From Akkermansiaceae bacterium (GTDB taxonomy: Bacteria > Verrucomicrobiota > Verrucomicrobiia > Verrucomicrobiales > Akkermansiaceae): DNA of 34,689 nucleotides. Positions within the stretch are counted from its first letter, which is position 1, and the number at the start of each line of letters is the position of its first letter. Of this stretch, positions 8,108-28,669 are shown one piece after another. The notes below the pieces were generated by a model. That model worked only from the letters and a program-made list of their open reading frames with translations, ran no database searches and was not told the DNA's origin. The stretch spans positions 1 through 34,689 of the forward strand of contig CANHPN010000021.1 in assembly GCA_947462535.1 (NCBI GenBank), read 5' to 3'. A program made the position numbers and the translations under genes.

Positions 8108-9202
8108 ATGCCGCAGCCCGACTTTACCGCCGAAATCCAACGCGCTCTCACTGAGCGAATCTTCGTTCTCGACGGAGCGATGGGCACCACGATCCGGACT
8201 TACGGACTCGACGAGGCCGCCGCCCGTGGTCCGCGATTTGCCGATAACGAAAAGGATCTGCTGAACAACGGCGACATTCTCTCGATCACCCGCCCGGAAA
8301 TCATCGGCGACATCCACAAGCGCTTTTACGAGGCGGGCTCGGACATCTGCGAAACCAACACCTTCTCCGCGACCGGCATCGCGCAGAGCGAGTTTTTCGT
8401 TGAGGACCCGCGCGAAAAGGGCGGTCGGAAAGATCCGGAGTTTTTCCAGAAAATCCTCGAAGACACCTTTCTCAACGACCTCGCGTGGGAAATGAACGTC
8501 GAGTCTGCGCGCCTCTGCCGCAAGTGGGCGGACGACATCGGCACCGACACCGGTCGCAAGCGCTACGTCGCCGGTGCGATCGGGCCGCTCACCGTTTCTT
8601 TGACGAACTCGCCCGACGCCAACGATTCGGGCTTCCGCGTGGTGACCTTCGACCAGGTGCTCGCCGCCTACAAACACCAGGTCCGCGGACTCATCGAAGG
8701 CGGCTGTGACATTCTGATGATCGAGACGATTTTTGATTCTCTCAACGCCAAAGCCGCCGCCGTGGCAGTGCAGGAAGTCTATGACGAAGATCATGTGCGC
8801 CTTCCCATCATCATCTCCGCCGCCGTCGGTCTGGGTGGAGAAACTATGATTTCCGCGCAAAAAGTCGAAGCTCTCTGGAATGCCTTCGCCCACACCAAAC
8901 CACTCGCCATCGGCTTGAACTGCTCGCTCGGCCCCGACCTGATGCGGCCCCACCTCGAAGAACTCTCCGAGTGCGCCGCCACCTGCATTTCCTGTTATCC
9001 CAACGCCGGCCTGCCCAACCCGCTCGCGCCGACCGGCTTTGATCTGGAACCGCAGCACATGCATGACTACATGGCGGAATTCGCGCAAGCGGGACTCTTG
9101 AATCTAGCAGGCGGCTGCTGTGGAAACACGCCTGAACACGTCGCTGCAATCGCCAGGGCCGTGGCGAAATACGCGCCGCGGGAAGTGCCGGTAGTTCGCT
9201 AA
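8108..9202 (+). CDS. metH: Methionine synthase, homocysteine-binding module (5' part of split metH)
   Basis: A 364-residue protein equal to the N-terminal homocysteine S-methyltransferase barrel of cobalamin-dependent MetH. It opens ERIFVLDGAMGTTIRTYGLD. The three zinc-binding cysteines are present: LNCSLGP (C272) and GGCCGN (C337, C338). It ends YAPREVPVVR, which matches the linker APRKLPE of E. coli MetH, directly before the point where the folate module should continue. A stop codon (9200-9202) and a GxxExxY cassette follow, and the rest of MetH resumes at 9661. A segment near residues 238-251 (AAVGLGGETMISAQ) differs from the usual TITDxSGRTLSGQ motif. Transfer of the methyl group would need association with the second protein. 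Confidence 0.93.
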   Translation: MPQPDFTAEIQRALTERIFVLDGAMGTTIRTYGLDEAAARGPRFADNEKDLLNNGDILSITRPEIIGDIHKRFYEAGSDICETNTFSATGIAQSEFFVEDPREKGGRKDPEFFQKILEDTFLNDLAWEMNVESARLCRKWADDIGTDTGRKRYVAGAIGPLTVSLTNSPDANDSGFRVVTFDQVLAAYKHQVRGLIEGGCDILMIETIFDSLNAKAAAVAVQEVYDEDHVRLPIIISAAVGLGGETMISAQKVEALWNAFAHTKPLAIGLNCSLGPDLMRPHLEELSECAATCISCYPNAGLPNPLAPTGFDLEPQHMHDYMAEFAQAGLLNLAGGCCGNTPEHVAAIARAVAKYAPREVPVVR

Positions 9203-9206
9203 GATT

Positions 9207-9648
9207 TACCGCAGAGGAACGCAAAGGAAGGATATGAAGGATTACTTGAACAAGCTTTCGGGCGAGGTGATAGGCGCGGCCATCGAAGTGCATAACGATT
9301 TGGGGCCGGGGCTTCTGGAGTCGCCTTACGAAGCCAGTCTTCAGCATGAACTGAAACTTCGGGGATTCGACTCGGTGAGGCAGTTGATTTTGCCGATCAA
9401 ATACAAGGATCTGGTTGTTCCCGAGGCTTATCGGATCGACCTGGTGGTCGAGAATTGCCTCGTGATCGAACTCAAAACCGTTGAAGCGTTGCTACCCATC
9501 CACTCGGCCCAGCTTCTTACTTACCTTAGAATGTCCGACAACCATCTCGGACTCCTCATTAACTTCCACACTGACGGCATCAAACGCCTCGTCCACAACT
9601 TCCCATCTTAACTCTGCGTCCCTCTGCGACCTTTGCGCCTTGCGGTTA
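9207..9648 (+). mobile_element. GxxExxY cassette with imperfect inverted ends, inserted in metH
   Basis: A roughly 440-bp unit separates the two metH frames. Its left end (9208-9227, ACCGCAGAGGAACGCAAAGG) matches the reverse complement of the right end in two overlapping alignments: 9210-9227 against 9611-9628 (15 of 18 identical), and the outer ACCGCAAGGCGCAAAGG (reverse of about 9630-9646). Such 'CGCAGAGGRACGCARAG' sequences commonly flank GxxExxY genes in this group of bacteria. How these cassettes move is not established. No transposase is encoded and I see no convincing target duplication. Confidence 0.6.
9234..9611 (+). CDS. GxxExxY protein
   Basis: A 125-residue protein beginning [20 protein letters not shown] with the family's core [17 protein letters not shown]; the GLLESPY segment is the GxxExxY motif. 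A later segment, [18 protein letters not shown], has the D-x(n)-E-x-K pattern of PD-(D/E)xK nuclease-fold proteins. The function of the family is not known, although the motif order suggests a compact nuclease fold. It lies between the two parts of metH and inside inverted CGCAGAG-type repeats, which suggests arrival as a cassette rather than a metH partner. A GGAAGG precedes the ATG. The stop at 9609-9611 touches the right-hand repeat. Confidence 0.88.
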
Positions 9649-9660
9649 ACTCTTCTCCAA

Positions 9661-12600
9661 ATGAAAACCATTCCCCACGCCCTCCGTCTATCCGGCACCG
9701 AGGCCTACAACCACACCGCCGACAAGCGCTTCCTGATGATCGGCGAGCGCGCGAACGTCGCGGGCTCTCCGCAGTTTGCGAAACTCGTTAGAGCGGGTGA
9801 CCTCGAAGCCGCCGTCGAGGTGGCCCGCCAGCAGGTGGCCAACGGCGCGAACGTCATCGACATCTGTTTCGACGACGGCCTCATCGACGGCAAGGCGATG
9901 ATGAGCCGTTTCCTGCAACTTCTCCAAGGCGAGCCGGACGTCGCGAAGGTGCCGATCATGGTGGATTCCTCGAAGTGGGAAATCCTCGAGGAAGGGCTGA
10001 AATACCTCCAAGGGAAGGGAATCGTGAACTCGATCTCGCTCAAGGAGGGCGAGGAGAACTTCAAGAAACAAGCCCGCCACATCATGCGCTACGGCGCGGC
10101 GGTGGTCGTCATGGCTTTCGATGAAAACGGCCAGGCGGCTTCGTATGACGAGAAGATCCGCATCTGCGGGCGAGCCTACCGGATTCTTGTCGATGAGGTC
10201 GGCTTCAATCCCGACGACATCATTTTCGATCCCAACATCCTGACCGTCGCCACCGGCATCGAGGAGCATAACAACTACGCGCTCGACTTCATCAACGCGA
10301 CCCGCTGGATCAAGGAGAACCTGCCCGGCGCGAAGGTTTCCGGCGGCGTTTCCAACATTTCCTTCTCCTTCCGCGGCAACAACAAGGTCCGCGAGGCGAT
10401 GCACTCCGCGTTCCTCTATCATGCCGGACTGGCGGGAATGGACATGGGAATCGTCAATGCCGGGATGCTTGAGCTTTACGACGAGATTCCTAAAGACCTG
10501 TTGGAATGCGTCGAGGATGTGCTTCTCAACCGCCGCCCCGATTCGACCGAGCGGCTGCTGGAACTTGCGGAAAGTTACAAAAACGTCGGCGGTAAGAAAA
10601 TCGAGGAGGATCTATCATGGCGCGACGAGCCGGTGGAAAAGCGGCTTGAACACGCGCTGCTGCGCGGCATCGACAAATACATCGACGAGGACACCGAGGA
10701 AGCGCGTTTGAAATACGTGCGTCCGCTCAAGGTGATCGAAGGCCCGCTGATGGATGGCATGGGCGTGGTCGGCGACCTGTTCGGGGCTGGGAAAATGTTC
10801 CTGCCGCAAGTGGTGAAATCCGCGCGGGTGATGAAGAAGGCGGTCGCCTGGCTGTTTCCATTCATGGAAGCGGACAAGGCCGAATATCTCGCAGGCGACA
10901 TCGCCGCGATCAAGTTGGAGAACCCCGCGCTCACGGACGACGAGGCGCTCAAACTCGCCGAACGCGGCCGCTCGGCCGGCCGTTTCCTGATCGCCACGGT
11001 GAAGGGTGACGTGCACGACATCGGCAAGAACATCGTGGGCGTGGTGCTTTCCTGCAACGGCTTTGAAGTTACCGACATGGGCGTGATGGTTTCATGCGAC
11101 AAGATTCTGGCAAAAGCCAAGGAACTCGAGGCGGACGTGATCGGCCTATCCGGTTTGATCACGCCGTCGCTCGATGAGATGGTGCATGTCGCCAAGGAAA
11201 TGGAGCGTCTCGGTTTCAAGGTGCCGCTGCTCATCGGCGGCGCGACGACTTCCGCCGCGCACACCGCGATCAAGATCGCGCAGCATTACTCGGGGCCGGT
11301 GGTTCACGTGCTCGACGCCTCGCGCTCCGTGCCGGTCACCACATCTCTGCTATCGAAAGATCAGCGCGACACCTTCGCGCGGGAGAACCGCGAGAAGCAA
11401 CAAAAGCTCCGCGACAATTTCCTCGGTGGGCCGAAAAAGGAAACCCTCACTCTCGCCGAGGCACGCATCGCCGGCCCTAAGTTCGACTGGTCTAACTACA
11501 CGCCGCCGGTCCCAGCGTTCACCGGCACGCGGACGATCAAGAGGCCGTCACTGCGCGAGCTCGCCAAGTTCATCGACTGGACGCCGTTCTTCCACGCCTG
11601 GGAACTCCGCGGGGTGTGGGACCGGGAGAACAAGGTTCTCAAAACCCAGAACGCTGAGGGCGCGGTGGAAGCCGGCAAGCTCTATCAGGATGCGATGGCG
11701 TGGGTTGACCGCATCATCGCCGAAGACCGTTTCCGCGCGGAGGGCATTTACGGATTTTTCCCCGCGAACGCCGAGGGCGATGACATCATCGTCTGGACCG
11801 ATGAGACGCGGACGACCGAGCGCATGCGTTTCCACAGCCTCCGCCAGCAGCTCAAGAAGGACTCGGGAAAGCCGAACGTCGCTCTAGCAGACTGGGTCGC
11901 GCCATGTAGCGGCGATCACCGGTCGCCGCGAATGGCCCCGTCATTCCTCAACCCCGAAAAAATCATCGCCCGCAGCGACAAGGGCCATCTCCCCCACTGG
12001 CACCAAGACGGCGCGACCTACGCCGTCACATTCCGGCTTGCCGACTCACTCCCGCAATCCGTCCTCGCCGAATATCAGCAGGAAAAGCAAGAAGCGCTTC
12101 TCAAACTCAAACAAGCGGAAGATGCGGGAGACGCCGCCCTTTCGGCACAACTTAAGGGTGAACTCGAAAGTCTCTATCACGAGCGGATGGAAACCGCGCT
12201 TCACGCGGGGTATGGTGAATGTTGGATGAAGCGACCTGAGATCGCGCAGGTGGTCTGCAACGCGTTGTTTTATTTCGATGGCGATCATTACGACCTTGGG
12301 CCGTGGTGTGTGATGCCGAATCATGTGCATTTCCTGATCAAGCCGAGGGACGGTCATTCGCTGTCGAAGATTTTGCAGGGGATCAAGTCGGCTTCGGCGA
12401 AGGAAATTAACATTCTGTTGAGGCGTGAGGGTTCGCTTTGGCAGAAGGAGTCCTATGATCACATCGTCCGCGATGCGGATGACTATTGGAACCAGCGGAG
12501 TTATATTTTGGGGAATCCGAAGGCGGCCGGGTTGGTGGATTGGGAGTTTTTGGGGGAGCCGGGCTCGCGGCGACCGGTGATCGCCGCTACGCCGGACTAC

Positions 12601-13101
12601 ATCGGCGGCTTCGTGGTCGGCATCCACGGCGCGCATGAATTCGCGGAAGAGTTGGACAAGCAGATCGATCCTTACGGTGCGATCATGGTCAAGGCCATCG
12701 CCGACCGCTTCGCCGAGGCCTTCGCGGAGTTCCTCCACCACAAGGCGCGGATCGAGTGGGGCTATGAAACCGAGGACGAGCTCACGCACGACCAGTTGAT
12801 TCATGAGAACTATCAGGGCATCCGTCCGGCACCGGGTTATCCCGCGCAGCCGGATCACACGGAGAAGCCGCCGTTGTTCGAGCTGCTAGACGCTCCGGCA
12901 GAGACCGGCGTGAACCTGACGGAAAGCTGCGCAATGCATCCCGGTGCGGCGGTGTGCGGATTGTATTTCTCACATCCGGACAGCCACTATTTCGCCATTT
13001 CCGAGCTTCAGAAAGACCAGATCGAAGATTACGCCCGGCGCAAGGGCATCAGTGCGCAGGAGGCCGAAAAATGGCTGGGGCCGTGGTTGGGATACGCATG
13101 A
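9661..13101 (+). CDS. metH: Methionine synthase folate/B12/AdoMet modules with in-frame RAYT insertion
   Basis: A single open frame of 1146 residues. Residues 1-about 300 are the pterin-binding (methyl-tetrahydrofolate) module ([25 protein letters not shown]). Residues about 320-620 are the cobalamin cap and binding domain, with the B12-ligand motif DVHDIGKN (His452). Residues about 625-748 and 979-1146 are the AdoMet-binding reactivation module, with FIDWTPFF (Asp639) and RPAPGYP (Arg1055). Residues 749-978 are foreign: a RAYT transposase inserted between LADWVAP and DYIGGF, which are almost adjacent in E. coli MetH. Removing 230 codons restores normal MetH spacing. ATG 9661 was chosen because [11 protein letters not shown] aligns with IPVACRLSG of E. 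coli; an earlier frame opening overlaps the GxxExxY gene. Whether the chimera is active is unknown. Confidence 0.95.
11906..11930 (+). repeat. REP palindrome, copy 1 (left flank of RAYT)
   Basis: A 25-bp REP: GTA, stem GCGGCGA (11909-11915), loop TCACCGG, stem TCGCCGC (11923-11929), G. In the metH frame it is read without a stop as CSGDHRSPR. It is the exact reverse complement of the copy at 12566-12590. Confidence 0.93.
12566..12590 (-). repeat. REP palindrome, copy 2 (right flank of RAYT)
   Basis: The exact reverse complement of 11906-11930 over all 25 bases. In the metH frame it is read as SRRPVIAAT, again with no stop. The two copies bracket the RAYT coding sequence in the inverted arrangement typical of RAYT loci. 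Confidence 0.93.
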
Positions 13102-25765: not shown

Positions 25766-25890
25766 TTGCGGGCTGGTGATTCACCTGTCTTGTCGCGCCG
25801 CTGAACCCTCTCACCCGGGAGTTGCTGCGCCAGCGGGATCTTCATCTTTTCGCGCAAGTTCTCAATGAGTTCACCGTCAACGCGCGCTGC

Positions 25891-25921
25891 GGCCGCCGCT
25901 ACAAATCGGCGGCCATTTTTT
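25891..25921 (+). terminator. Rho-independent terminator upstream of nuoF
   Basis: A perfect 8-bp stem GGCCGCCG (25891-25898) with CGGCGGCC (25907-25914), an 8-base loop, then ATTTTTT. It lies 125 bases after the helicase stop and 60 bases before the nuoF ATG. It probably ends the helicase transcript, although an attenuator in the nuoF leader cannot be excluded. Confidence 0.75.
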
Positions 25922-25980
25922 GCCAAAATTGGGTTTTGCTTGGCGGGTTTCCCTGCCAATACTGCGGCGGACTTTCCCGC

Positions 25981-27375
25981 ATGATCACTTATACCAAGCA
26001 GCCACACGCCCGCGAATACCGGCTTATCTTCAAGAACGTGGATCGGGAAGGCTGGGATCCTTCGATGGAATGCTACCTGCGCGACGGCGGCTACGATGAT
26101 CTGAAAAAGGCCTTCGCAATGCAGCCGAAGGAGGTCACCGAGGAGGTGAAAAAATCCGGCCTGCGCGGCCGCGGCGGCGCGGGATTCCCGACCGGGATGA
26201 AATGGACGTTCATCCCGCCGAACAACACCAAGCCGGTCTATCTGATCTGCAACGGCGACGAGTCCGAGCCGGGCACTTTCAAGGACCGCTACATTCTCCA
26301 TCAGGACCCACACCAGCTCGTCGAGGGCATGGTGATCTCGGCTTACGCGGTCGGTGCGAAGACGGCTTACATCTACATCCGCGAGGAGTTCCCGGAAGCG
26401 GCGTTGATCGTGGAGCGGGCGATCGAAGAGGCCCGCGCCCACAATTTTCTTGGGAAAAACGTGCTCGGCTCCGGCTTTGACGTGGAAATCTACGTCCACC
26501 GCGGCGCGGGTGCCTACATTTGCGGCGAGGAAACCGGCTTGATCGAGTCGCTCGAGGGCAAGCGTCCGTATCCACGGATCAAGCCGCCGTATTTTCCGGC
26601 GGCGCTCGGACTCTACATGTGCCCGACCATCGTCAACAACGTGGAATCGCTCTGCCACGTGAAGCACATCATCCGCATGGGCGGCGACGAATACGCGAAA
26701 CTCGGAGTGGCTAGAAACACCGGCACGCGGATTCTCTGCGTCTCGGGCGATGTGAAGAATCCCGGTTATTTCGAGGTCGAGGTCGGCAAGGTGACGATGC
26801 GCGAGCTGCTCTACGACATGTGCGGCGGACCGAAGGACGGTCGCGAATTCAAGGCGGTGATTCCCGGCGGATCTTCTTCGAAAATTTTGAAGTGCAACGA
26901 GGTTTTCAAACTGAAGAACCCTGACGGCACGACTAAGGATCTCGATTTCTGGGACATCCAGATGGACTTCGATACTCTAGCAGCCTGCGGCTCGATGGCC
27001 GGCTCCGGCGGCGTGATCGTCCTCGATGACACCCGCAAGATGTCCTGGGTGCTCAATAATTTGAACGCCTTCTACGCCCACGAATCCTGCGGCCAGTGCA
27101 CTCCGTGCCGCGAAGGCTCGACGTGGATGAAGAAGATCTCCGACCGCCTCGTCGCCGGGGAAGCCAGCCCGTCCGATATCGAGACGCTGGAGAGCGTGGC
27201 CTATCAGATCGATGGCCGCACCATCTGCGCTTTCGGCGAAGCATCGTCCTGGCCGGTGGAGGCGATCATCGGGAAATTCCGCGACGAGCTGCTCGCCGAC
27301 ACCAAGCCGGAGAACGCGACCCATCCGCACAATCCCGAGGAGGAGGCGCAGCGGCGCTTCCTTCGGCCAGCGTAG
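25981..27375 (+). CDS. nuoF: NADH-quinone oxidoreductase subunit F
   Basis: A 464-residue NADH-binding flavoprotein of respiratory complex I. FMN and NADH sites are visible in LRGRGGAGFPTGMKW, NGDESEPGTFKDRYI and AYICGEETGLIESLEGKRP. The N3 4Fe-4S cluster ligands lie in ESCGQCTPCREGSTWM, with the fourth Cys in GRTICAFGEA. ATG 25981 gives the normal N-terminus (MITYTKQPHAREYRLIFKN). It is isolated: no nuoE or nuoG is next to it in the window, so the NADH module must be assembled from scattered genes. The stop codon TAG (27373-27375) lies inside a REP palindrome, so the last residues abut mobile sequence. A role in another NAD-linked enzyme, such as a formate dehydrogenase, is less likely but possible. 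Confidence 0.92.
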   Translation: MITYTKQPHAREYRLIFKNVDREGWDPSMECYLRDGGYDDLKKAFAMQPKEVTEEVKKSGLRGRGGAGFPTGMKWTFIPPNNTKPVYLICNGDESEPGTFKDRYILHQDPHQLVEGMVISAYAVGAKTAYIYIREEFPEAALIVERAIEEARAHNFLGKNVLGSGFDVEIYVHRGAGAYICGEETGLIESLEGKRPYPRIKPPYFPAALGLYMCPTIVNNVESLCHVKHIIRMGGDEYAKLGVARNTGTRILCVSGDVKNPGYFEVEVGKVTMRELLYDMCGGPKDGREFKAVIPGGSSSKILKCNEVFKLKNPDGTTKDLDFWDIQMDFDTLAACGSMAGSGGVIVLDDTRKMSWVLNNLNAFYAHESCGQCTPCREGSTWMKKISDRLVAGEASPSDIETLESVAYQIDGRTICAFGEASSWPVEAIIGKFRDELLADTKPENATHPHNPEEEAQRRFLRPA

Positions 27376-27396
27376 CGGCGATCACCGGTCGCCGCG
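27372..27396 (+). repeat. REP palindrome, copy 3 (contains nuoF stop codon)
   Basis: Identical over all 25 bases to the copy at 11906-11930. The GTAG at its left end provides the TAG stop of nuoF at 27373-27375. The copy lies 16 bases upstream of the ATG of the DoxX gene and could fold as a 7-bp stem in the intergenic mRNA. Confidence 0.92.
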
Positions 27397-27412
27397 AAGC
27401 TCTTCCTCTTCC

Positions 27413-27856
27413 ATGAATGCCGCCACCCTCACCGCCCGCGTCCTGCTAGGCACGTGGTTTGTCTATAGCGGCGGCATGAAAATCTTCGGCACGGGCATCG
27501 ACCGCTTCACCCGCGACGTGGCGAACTATCAGCTCGTCAAGCCGCCGCTGGACGCGGTGGCGGCCTACACCGTGCCGTGGCTGGAGGTCGTCGCCGGGCT
27601 TTGCCTGATGCTCGGAATTCTCCGCAAAGGGGCGATCCTCACCATCGCCGGACTGGTGGTGGTGTTTTCCGTTTCCGTCGGCTGGGCCTGGTCGAAAGGC
27701 CTCGATATTTCCTGCGGCTGCCACGGCGGCGACGCGCCGATCCAGTATTGGAACAAGGCCGCGGAGTTCGCGGGGTATTTCATGCTGCTGGGGTGGTTGT
27801 GGTGGAGGGAGATGCGAAACGTGGCGGCGATCACCGGTCGCCGCGAGTCTTTGTGA
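27413..27856 (+). CDS. DoxX/MauE-like membrane protein
   Basis: A 147-residue protein with four hydrophobic helices. The N-terminal part, ARVLLGTWFVYSGGMKIFG, matches the DoxX/MauE opening (R-x-x-L-G-x-x-F-x-x-S-G-x-x-K). A cysteine pair in DISCGCHGGDAP sits at a loop after helix 3, as in the MauE-type redox-associated members. Such proteins are linked to thiol/disulfide chemistry or quinone-linked respiration, but this one has no assigned reaction. The last codons ([11 protein letters not shown]) are read through a REP copy, so its native C-terminus may have been replaced. It lies 37 bases after nuoF and may be co-transcribed with it. Confidence 0.82.
   Translation: MNAATLTARVLLGTWFVYSGGMKIFGTGIDRFTRDVANYQLVKPPLDAVAAYTVPWLEVVAGLCLMLGILRKGAILTIAGLVVVFSVSVGWAWSKGLDISCGCHGGDAPIQYWNKAAEFAGYFMLLGWLWWREMRNVAAITGRRESL
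27821..27845 (+). repeat. REP palindrome, copy 4 (inside DoxX 3' end)
   Basis: Matches copy 1 at 24 of 25 positions (GTG for GTA at the left end). It is read in the DoxX frame and pairs with the inverted copy at 27862-27884. Confidence 0.9.
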
Positions 27857-27861
27857 TTTGA

Positions 27862-27884
27862 CGGCGACCGGTGATCGCCGCTAC
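27862..27884 (-). repeat. REP palindrome, copy 5 (inverted partner, REPIN-like pair)
   Basis: Its 23 bases equal the reverse complement of the REP in copies 1 and 3. With copy 4, 16 bases away, it can form one long hairpin between the DoxX and pyrF genes, the layout of a REPIN. The pyrF ATG is 8 bases downstream. Confidence 0.9.
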
Positions 27885-27892
27885 TTCGTGCC

Positions 27893-28669
27893 ATGCGCTA
27901 CGCGGAACGTCTTCAGCAACGGATTGATCAAACCGGGTCCCGGCTCTGTGTCGGGCTGGATCCAAGGCCGGGGGACGGCGGGGCTGCGGCGGCGCGGGAT
28001 TTTCTCAAACAAGTCGTCGAGGAAACGGGGCAATGGGCGGCGTGTTACAAGCCGAATATGGCTTACTTCGAGGCGATGGGCATCGAGGGAATCCGCCTGC
28101 TCGAAGAACTGCTCGGCGGGATGCCGGAAGACGTGCCGGTGATTCTGGACGCGAAACGCAGCGACATCGGCGAGACTCAGAAATACTACGCGCAGGGCTA
28201 TTTCGCCGGGTGGAATGTGGACGCGGTCACGCTCAATCCGTTTCTCGGCTATGACTCGATCGAGCCGTTTCTGGATTGGGCGGGGAAGGGGATCTATCTG
28301 CTCGCGGTGACTTCGAATCCCGGGTCGGCCGATTTCCAGCGGCAAAAACTTGCGGACGGCCGTTCCGTTTTCGAACTGGTCACTGCGCTCGGTGAGCGGG
28401 CGAAGGAAGAAGGTCGCGCCACGGATGTGGGCTACGTCGTCGGCCTGACGAACGCGGCGGATGTTTTGGAGAAAATGCCGGACGCGCCGCTGCTGGTCCC
28501 CGGACTCGGAGCGCAGGGCGGCGATCTGGCATCGCTGGCCGCCGCCGGTCGCGCCGCACCGGATGTGATCAATGTTTCCCGCGGCATTCTCTACGCGGGG
28601 GACGACCGGAGCTTCGCGGAAAGGGCGCAGGACTGGGCGGCGAAGATCGCCGCCGCTTACGGCAAATGA
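27893..28669 (+). CDS. pyrF: Orotidine 5'-phosphate decarboxylase
   Basis: A 258-residue TIM-barrel enzyme for the last step of UMP synthesis. It is of the longer subfamily 2, with CVGLDPRPG, ACYKPNMAYFEAMG, the catalytic DAKRSDIGET (Asp/Lys tetrad), NPFLGYDSIEPFL, and the phosphate-binding LVPGLGAQGGD and NVSRGILYAG. All catalytic residues are visible. ATG 27893 is 8 bases from the REPIN-like pair, leaving almost no room for a ribosome binding site outside it, so the repeat may influence translation. The stop overlaps an ATG (28666) in the frame of the next gene. Confidence 0.95.
   Translation: MRYAERLQQRIDQTGSRLCVGLDPRPGDGGAAAARDFLKQVVEETGQWAACYKPNMAYFEAMGIEGIRLLEELLGGMPEDVPVILDAKRSDIGETQKYYAQGYFAGWNVDAVTLNPFLGYDSIEPFLDWAGKGIYLLAVTSNPGSADFQRQKLADGRSVFELVTALGERAKEEGRATDVGYVVGLTNAADVLEKMPDAPLLVPGLGAQGGDLASLAAAGRAAPDVINVSRGILYAGDDRSFAERAQDWAAKIAAAYGK

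Follow-up and report, generated by a model that had tools for sequence, protein, structure and literature searches.

The inverted REP pair between doxX and pyrF is most probably an old, inherited REPIN from the family of a RAYT transposase that is embedded in metH, where the REP-RAYT-REP element has turned over. The pair itself is apparently an ordinary REPIN in an unusual place; the novelty apparently lies in an in-frame, site-specific and mobile RAYT in core genes. Both loci lie within the stretch of 34,689 nucleotides analyzed (contig CANHPN010000021.1, here called the window). The features discussed are listed in Table 1.

Table 1. Features of the window that bear on the REPIN and on the metH-embedded RAYT.
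Feature	Position	Strand	Remarks
Homocysteine-binding part of methionine synthase, separate ORF	8108..9202	+	PF02574
metH ORF	9481..13101	+	Pterin, B12 and activation domains; in-frame RAYT splits the activation domain
REP at 5' end of RAYT insert	11906..11931	+	Translated SGDHRSPR
RAYT coding part	11932..12567	+	HVH at query residues 131-133 and Y175; both invariant in 12 aligned RAYTs
REP at 3' end of RAYT insert	12565..12590	-	100% complementary to the 5' REP over 26 nt; translated SRRPVIAAT
nuoF ORF	25822..27375	+	Complex1_51K, NADH_4Fe-4S; start is the ORF start, putative
Single same-family REP between nuoF and doxX	27372..27397	+	Its GTAG holds the nuoF stop TAG (27373-27375)
doxX/mauE-like gene	27413..27856	+	PF07291, PF07681; 27413 is the likely ATG within ORF 27212-27856
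REP arm 1	27821..27846	+	GTGG tag at outer end; codes for DoxX C-terminal VAAITGRRE
Inner 22-nt block	27845..27866	.	21-22/22 kept in five relatives, even with REP arms degraded or absent
REPIN spacer, 12 nt	27847..27858	.	Encodes the end of ESL and the doxX stop TGA (27854-27856)
REP arm 2	27859..27884	-	GTAG tag at outer end; stops 8 nt 5' of the pyrF ATG
pyrF, orotidine 5'-phosphate decarboxylase	27893..28669	+	PF00215

A 20-nt REP core occurs exactly at five positions of the window: 27824-27843(+), 27862-27881(-), 27375-27394(+), 11909-11928(+) and 12568-12587(-). With up to 3 mismatches allowed, the chance expectation is 0.02 sites, and none of 100 shuffles reached five. A chance palindrome at doxX-pyrF is ruled out by these shuffles and by reversed-pattern controls, which had no match in the genome-wide REP scan. 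The anatomy is that of the original prediction. The first REP codes for the C-terminal end of the DoxX/MauE protein (the ORF ends in the 11 residues proposed), and the second ends 8 bases before the pyrF ATG. The predicted gap of 16 bases applies to REPs of 24 nt and shrinks to 12 nt for the full 26-nt REPs. The long hairpin that had been suggested is borne out by arms that are 96% complementary over 23 nt, and RNA from 27806-27905 is predicted to fold at -66.1 kcal/mol, as compared to a shuffle mean of -38.3 (z -8.5).

The pair belongs to a population. The source genome (G000; 2.82 Mb, 104 contigs) has 42 listed REP places, of which at most 41 are distinct (C11 and C53 are one place on two overlapping contig ends). 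Counting inverted pairs and their spacers, as originally proposed, resulted in eight head-outward pairs with spacers of 12-26 nt; the listed places contain no other close pairs, and random placement would give about 0.07 close neighbors. Absence of further paired copies, which had been named as an argument against a REPIN population, is not what the genome shows. The designation as a REPIN could thus be made firm: the doxX-pyrF pair is inverted and head-outward, has a short spacer, a GTRG-type tag and an imperfect palindrome, is one of a population of pairs, and has a cognate, REP-flanked RAYT in the same genome. GTRG tags, imperfect palindromes, head-outward pairs and short variable spacers are likewise described for the REPINs and BIMEs of Pseudomonas, E. 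coli and Stenotrophomonas (PMC8049555, PMC8266576, PMC3116915).

The position at a gene end is not exceptional. According to rough codon-model gene calls, 33 of the 42 places could be classed: 14 are outside genes, eight are inside genes, six hold the stop codon of a gene, three are in the last 15 codons (including doxX) and two are at a gene start. At the six stop-codon places, the stop codon falls on the GTAG/GTAA tag. A gene-ending REP is usual in this genome, and such REPs are also known from elsewhere (PMC3733652). At doxX-pyrF, we envisage a non-autonomous element of two head-outward REPs, from a family that the metH RAYT presumably recognizes. It would straddle the end of doxX, with one arm tolerated as C-terminal codons and the spacer supplying the stop codon. 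An open reading frame through one REP and the position at the gene end would allow it to persist as a passenger.

For each of the eight REPINs, an orthologue exists in G001 or in G011 (one is cut by a contig end), and since all are orthologous in sister species, the REPIN pairs of this genome are regarded as old and mostly inherited. The doxX REPIN is identical in G001 (64/64) and well conserved in G034 (57/64), with 328/360 and 286/360 identities in the adjoining doxX DNA. Because of these orthologues, the pair is considered an inherited REPIN rather than a fresh insertion; it appears to be mostly old and vertically inherited, and to go back at least to the ancestor shared by G000, G001 and G034. 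A clean empty site for a REPIN was not found among the relatives compared. REPIN C15a is present in G000 and (cut) in G011, and is absent from G001, G034 and G009, whose upstream side does not align. REPs showed no marked excess of conservation over their flanks between G000 and G001 (451/474 = 95.1% versus 18210/19769 = 92.1%, counting only pairs at least 85% identical over at least 400 columns), and the small difference may result from the loci having been found by their exact core.

The hairpin could alternatively be an RNA element that is kept by the host, either as a 3' stabilizer or attenuator of doxX mRNA or as a switch that couples pyrF to doxX translation, with the ribosome opening arm 1. 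Its very stable fold ends right before the pyrF AUG, REPIN C15a likewise ends a few nucleotides 5' of an ATG, and the arms are intact in G000 and G001 and nearly so in G034. A single-arm hairpin with a T-rich tail was flagged as terminator-like (five such sites in 701 nt, as compared to 0.5 in shuffles, two of them being this arm); the long hairpin, however, is not followed by a U-run. Three relatives (G048, G042 and G039) keep doxX-pyrF at the same spacing along with the inner block, but their arms do not make up the repeat: arm 1 resembles that of G000 at 11-13/26 positions, which is near chance level, and arm 2 at 19-21/26. The doxX-pyrF repeat is lacking altogether in G043, G027 and G003, and hairpin REPs occur at the 42 listed places in unrelated contexts. 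We consider a host-kept RNA element quite unlikely. The Rfam search had no match in the window, which removes an ordinary structured RNA family from the candidates. We infer that the hairpin is chiefly a tolerated passenger; as a candidate role, it may well influence the ends of doxX mRNA or the initiation of pyrF.

The inner block (GAGTCTTTGTGATTTGACGGCG) deserves separate attention. It is retained where the arms are degraded or never were REPs, which suggests that it has a function of its own, and in four of the five relatives that keep it, doxX and pyrF are only 73-79% identical. In addition, TTTGACGGC recurs in G027. The block might be a promoter or a binding site for pyrF, with the surrounding REP arms being incidental. 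A scan for sigma-70-like promoters was negative here, though, the block partly consists of doxX coding sequence and the stop codon, and it has no Rfam match. This assignment is thus judged unlikely.

It is extremely improbable that the REP at 27372, doxX and the REP at 27859 form one composite mobile unit that carries doxX. The outer layout, with inverted REPs around one gene, is that of REP-RAYT-REP in metH, but the gene order nuoF-doxX-pyrF exists without these REPs in G043, G003, G042 and G039, so that doxX is a resident gene and was rejected as cargo of such a unit.

The putative parent element of the inherited REPIN is found in metH. The metH ORF codes for 1206 aa including the RAYT, and the Pfam and PDB MetH profiles align to it as two stretches on either side of the RAYT. 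The methionine synthase is split, its homocysteine-binding part being encoded by a separate ORF upstream of metH (Table 1). TnpA-REP (4er8) was detected as a relative of the metH RAYT by profile (E 2.8e-9) and by Foldseek on a structure model (1.3e-5). This model is weak (mean pLDDT 61.7, pTM 0.40); values are mostly 60-90 in the RAYT blocks and below 50 in the REP-encoded linker (87-142). The score against NF047646 (for L235, the metH RAYT tested) is 67.8, below the cut-off of 80. The invariant residues H131, H133 and Y175 are, from what is known of the family, presumably catalytic. With its HUH and catalytic Tyr motifs, the metH RAYT is classed as a TnpA-REP-type HUH Y1 transposase. Five Pfam families match the metH ORF at E<=1e-5, none of which is a splicing domain, and the insert probably stays in the protein. 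Within the MetH activation domain, REP-RAYT-REP would remain open and be translated. We infer that MetH and the RAYT are made as one fusion protein and that the RAYT acts on these REPs by cleaving and moving them. MetH would then also suffer from any frameshift or stop codon within the RAYT.

The source genome has eight Y1-transposase matches. When REPs (up to 6 mismatches) were searched for on both sides over about 1.5 kb, as far as the contig extended, only the match in the window had a doxX-type REP in the stretch inspected. The claim that the only visible RAYT is the one inside metH is true of the window and of this REP family; it understates the in-frame fusion, and the genome has two more RAYTs. 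These came up in the search for a second intact RAYT that had been proposed, and are located in frame in alaS and ispG (C3:12325-12636(-), C3:16506-17102(+); L036, L037, L179). They have other terminal repeats, so that the metH copy is the only one flanked by this REP.

The metH site was compared across 73 genomes of the genus. Each of the 66 genomes with a match has one copy of the MetH C-terminal part, and the site was read in 64 (G019 and G059 have partial matches only and were left out). An intact REP-RAYT-REP is present in 23, and 37 sites are empty (linkers of at most 18 nt). The other four, with 30, 39, 45 and 207 nt, are short remnants or longer linkers; the one of 207 nt is a RAYT with an internal deletion, and the one of 45 nt resembles what is left of a REP. 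All insert and linker lengths are multiples of 3, and inserts are always located between the same two MetH motifs. Most genomes compared are MAGs, but the in-frame insert is also present in the one-contig genome G004 and is therefore not merely a feature of draft assemblies. Among the MAGs represented by L235, L241, L251, L283 and L297, several with Luteolibacter-like metH/RAYT are labelled Akkermansia muciniphila, and these labels look doubtful.

According to their flanking REPs, from which the type labels are derived, seven of the 23 inserts are of type A, six of type B, five of type C and five of type D. The source genome also has nine copies of the type B REP (GGCGGTTTCCAACCGCC), while its metH carries type A. 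A tree of MetH flanks with 62 rows (two sites with short flanks were dropped) requires 17 changes between empty and occupied, and well-supported branches force 12 of these; occupied sites do not clearly cluster on this tree (57/500 shuffles were equally low). The REP-RAYT-REP element is probably gained, lost or replaced between species at this one site.

Pairs of genomes illustrate this. In G014 (Luteolibacter sp. CoA8N_E16; L252) and G016 (a MAG labelled Prosthecobacter debontii MoH-02may19-336; L253), the metH inserts are identical over 672/672 nt, as opposed to 78.3% and 85.6% identity in the metH flanks of 450 nt. In G008/G060, the insert is 97.7% identical as compared to 87.6% and 88.0% for the flanks, and RAYT dS is 0.069 versus flank dS of 0.717 and 0.367. 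Conversely, similar hosts have different inserts (76.8% insert identity in G000/G001, 71.2% in G008/G044), and the site is empty in G021 and occupied in G032, with both flanks being 97% alike.

These observations bear on whether the in-frame metH RAYTs are vertically inherited, domesticated domains, with the scatter being caused by loss and by recombination of metH segments rather than by movement. On a RAYT tree with 63 rows, the RAYTs group by host gene (12 label changes as compared to 34.0 in shuffles; 0/200 as low), as domestication would have it. The same clustering indicates that RAYT lineages keep to one host site in the fashion of homing elements. The identical run in G014/G016 extends 23 nt and 38 nt past the insert, and the identity of this pair could be due to gene conversion or recombination just as well as to insertion. 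However, identity already drops to 64/75 and 66/75 in the first windows of the flanks, and neither the dS values of G008/G060 nor the near-identical hosts with different types or with an empty site agree with plain vertical descent. A stable locus without horizontal movement, by which a domesticated, vertically inherited RAYT would be recognized, was not found at metH. Domestication is thus possible but doubtful.

RAYT dN/dS is 0.05-0.21 in seven of eight pairs (undefined in the eighth), which argues for purifying selection, with the protein itself and not merely an open frame being maintained. In all seven defined pairs, dS is lower in the REP ends than in the RAYT, a comparison that is partly circular since pairs were chosen within one REP type. 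REP copies (the two flanking copies being subtracted) reach higher numbers where metH carries the matching RAYT type, with p values, which ignore kinship, of 2.4e-6 (A), 0.0051 (B), 1.4e-4 (C) and 6.6e-5 (D); the medians are 12, 3.5, 15 and 13 for types A to D versus 0 in other genomes. Type A REPs are also found where metH carries a different RAYT type (37 copies in G001, 16 in G024) or is empty (10 in G040, 7 in G029). REP populations thus outlive the matching RAYT at metH, and presence of a type A RAYT is not needed for their persistence.

In-frame RAYTs are not restricted to metH. When named genomes were scanned using an alignment of metH RAYTs, a query that favors metH hosts, 72 loci were detected, 67 of which were examined (five weak or partial loci were left out). 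In 49 of the 67, at least one flank in the same ORF matches a named host: metH (27), ispG (6), a TPR protein (5), valS (5), leuS (4) and carB (2). Of the remaining loci, ten are flanked by other or unnamed sequences and eight stand alone. The RAYTs in leuS, valS, carB and the TPR protein (L263, L274, L295, L260 and relatives) are from Verrucomicrobiota and Planctomycetota and have translated repeats, e.g., GQDARAT and GTGVPPV. Three open frames have two RAYT matches each: L178 (G057:C107; 1452 aa), L184 (G055:C35; 1425 aa) and L127 (G054:C509; 1125 aa). We lean, with some reserve, towards the view that RAYTs and their REPs make up a class of mobile elements that occupy specific sites in frame within core genes, are intein-like, do not splice and move between species, with REPINs such as the doxX-pyrF pair as their scattered offspring. 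Taken jointly with this, metH, alaS, ispG, leuS, valS and carB of Verrucomicrobiota and Planctomycetota would be hosts, a reading that we favor to the same slight degree.

From sequence comparison, the metH RAYT looks like an intein-style mobile element. As with inteins and homing elements, it is inserted in frame into a core gene, with one fixed site per host gene and a scattered presence, and close relatives have empty alleles, with short remnants at metH. Unlike inteins, the insert consists of an HUH Y1 transposase and REPs, without a Pfam splicing domain (E<=1e-5). Rickettsia palindromic elements (RPE) carry, to our knowledge, no transposase. They are similar in that palindromic repeats are in frame within functional genes (cited in PMC3733652). 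Intragenic GTAG REPs, including those of the verrucomicrobium O. terrae, were reported by Di Nocera in 2013 (PMC3733652); the available text lists REPs within ORFs, with no reference to a RAYT embedded in one. As in REPIN-RAYT (TnpA-REP) systems, a cognate RAYT is flanked by the same REPs, and persistence is long (PMC8049555, PMC8266576, PMC3116915). Unlike in those systems, the RAYT is not a separate gene but part of the reading frame of a core gene, and it is apparently moved or replaced between species. RAYTs are described as single-copy, vertically inherited and not self-copying (PMC8049555), and the behavior of the metH RAYT looks to run against this description. No report of RAYTs in frame within core genes was found in the literature searched, the coverage of which mostly excluded subscription journals and preprints. 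A few TnpA-Y1 proteins of unexpected length were set aside by Quentin et al., who took them for fusions or annotation errors (PMC6006769). In-frame RAYT fusions would fall under a length filter of the kind described there, which is a warning for annotation.

Occupied and empty pairs such as G021/G032, together with an insert that is identical in two species, make movement directly testable. If the proposed reading is true, the element can occupy the middle of an essential protein because its REP ends are translated, and the selection acting on the host gene guards the frame of the transposase. How REPINs and RAYTs persist over millions of years is an open question. An in-frame RAYT in the essential MetH offers a concrete answer: the RAYT would persist because a host that disrupts the transposase frame could hardly avoid disrupting MetH as well.
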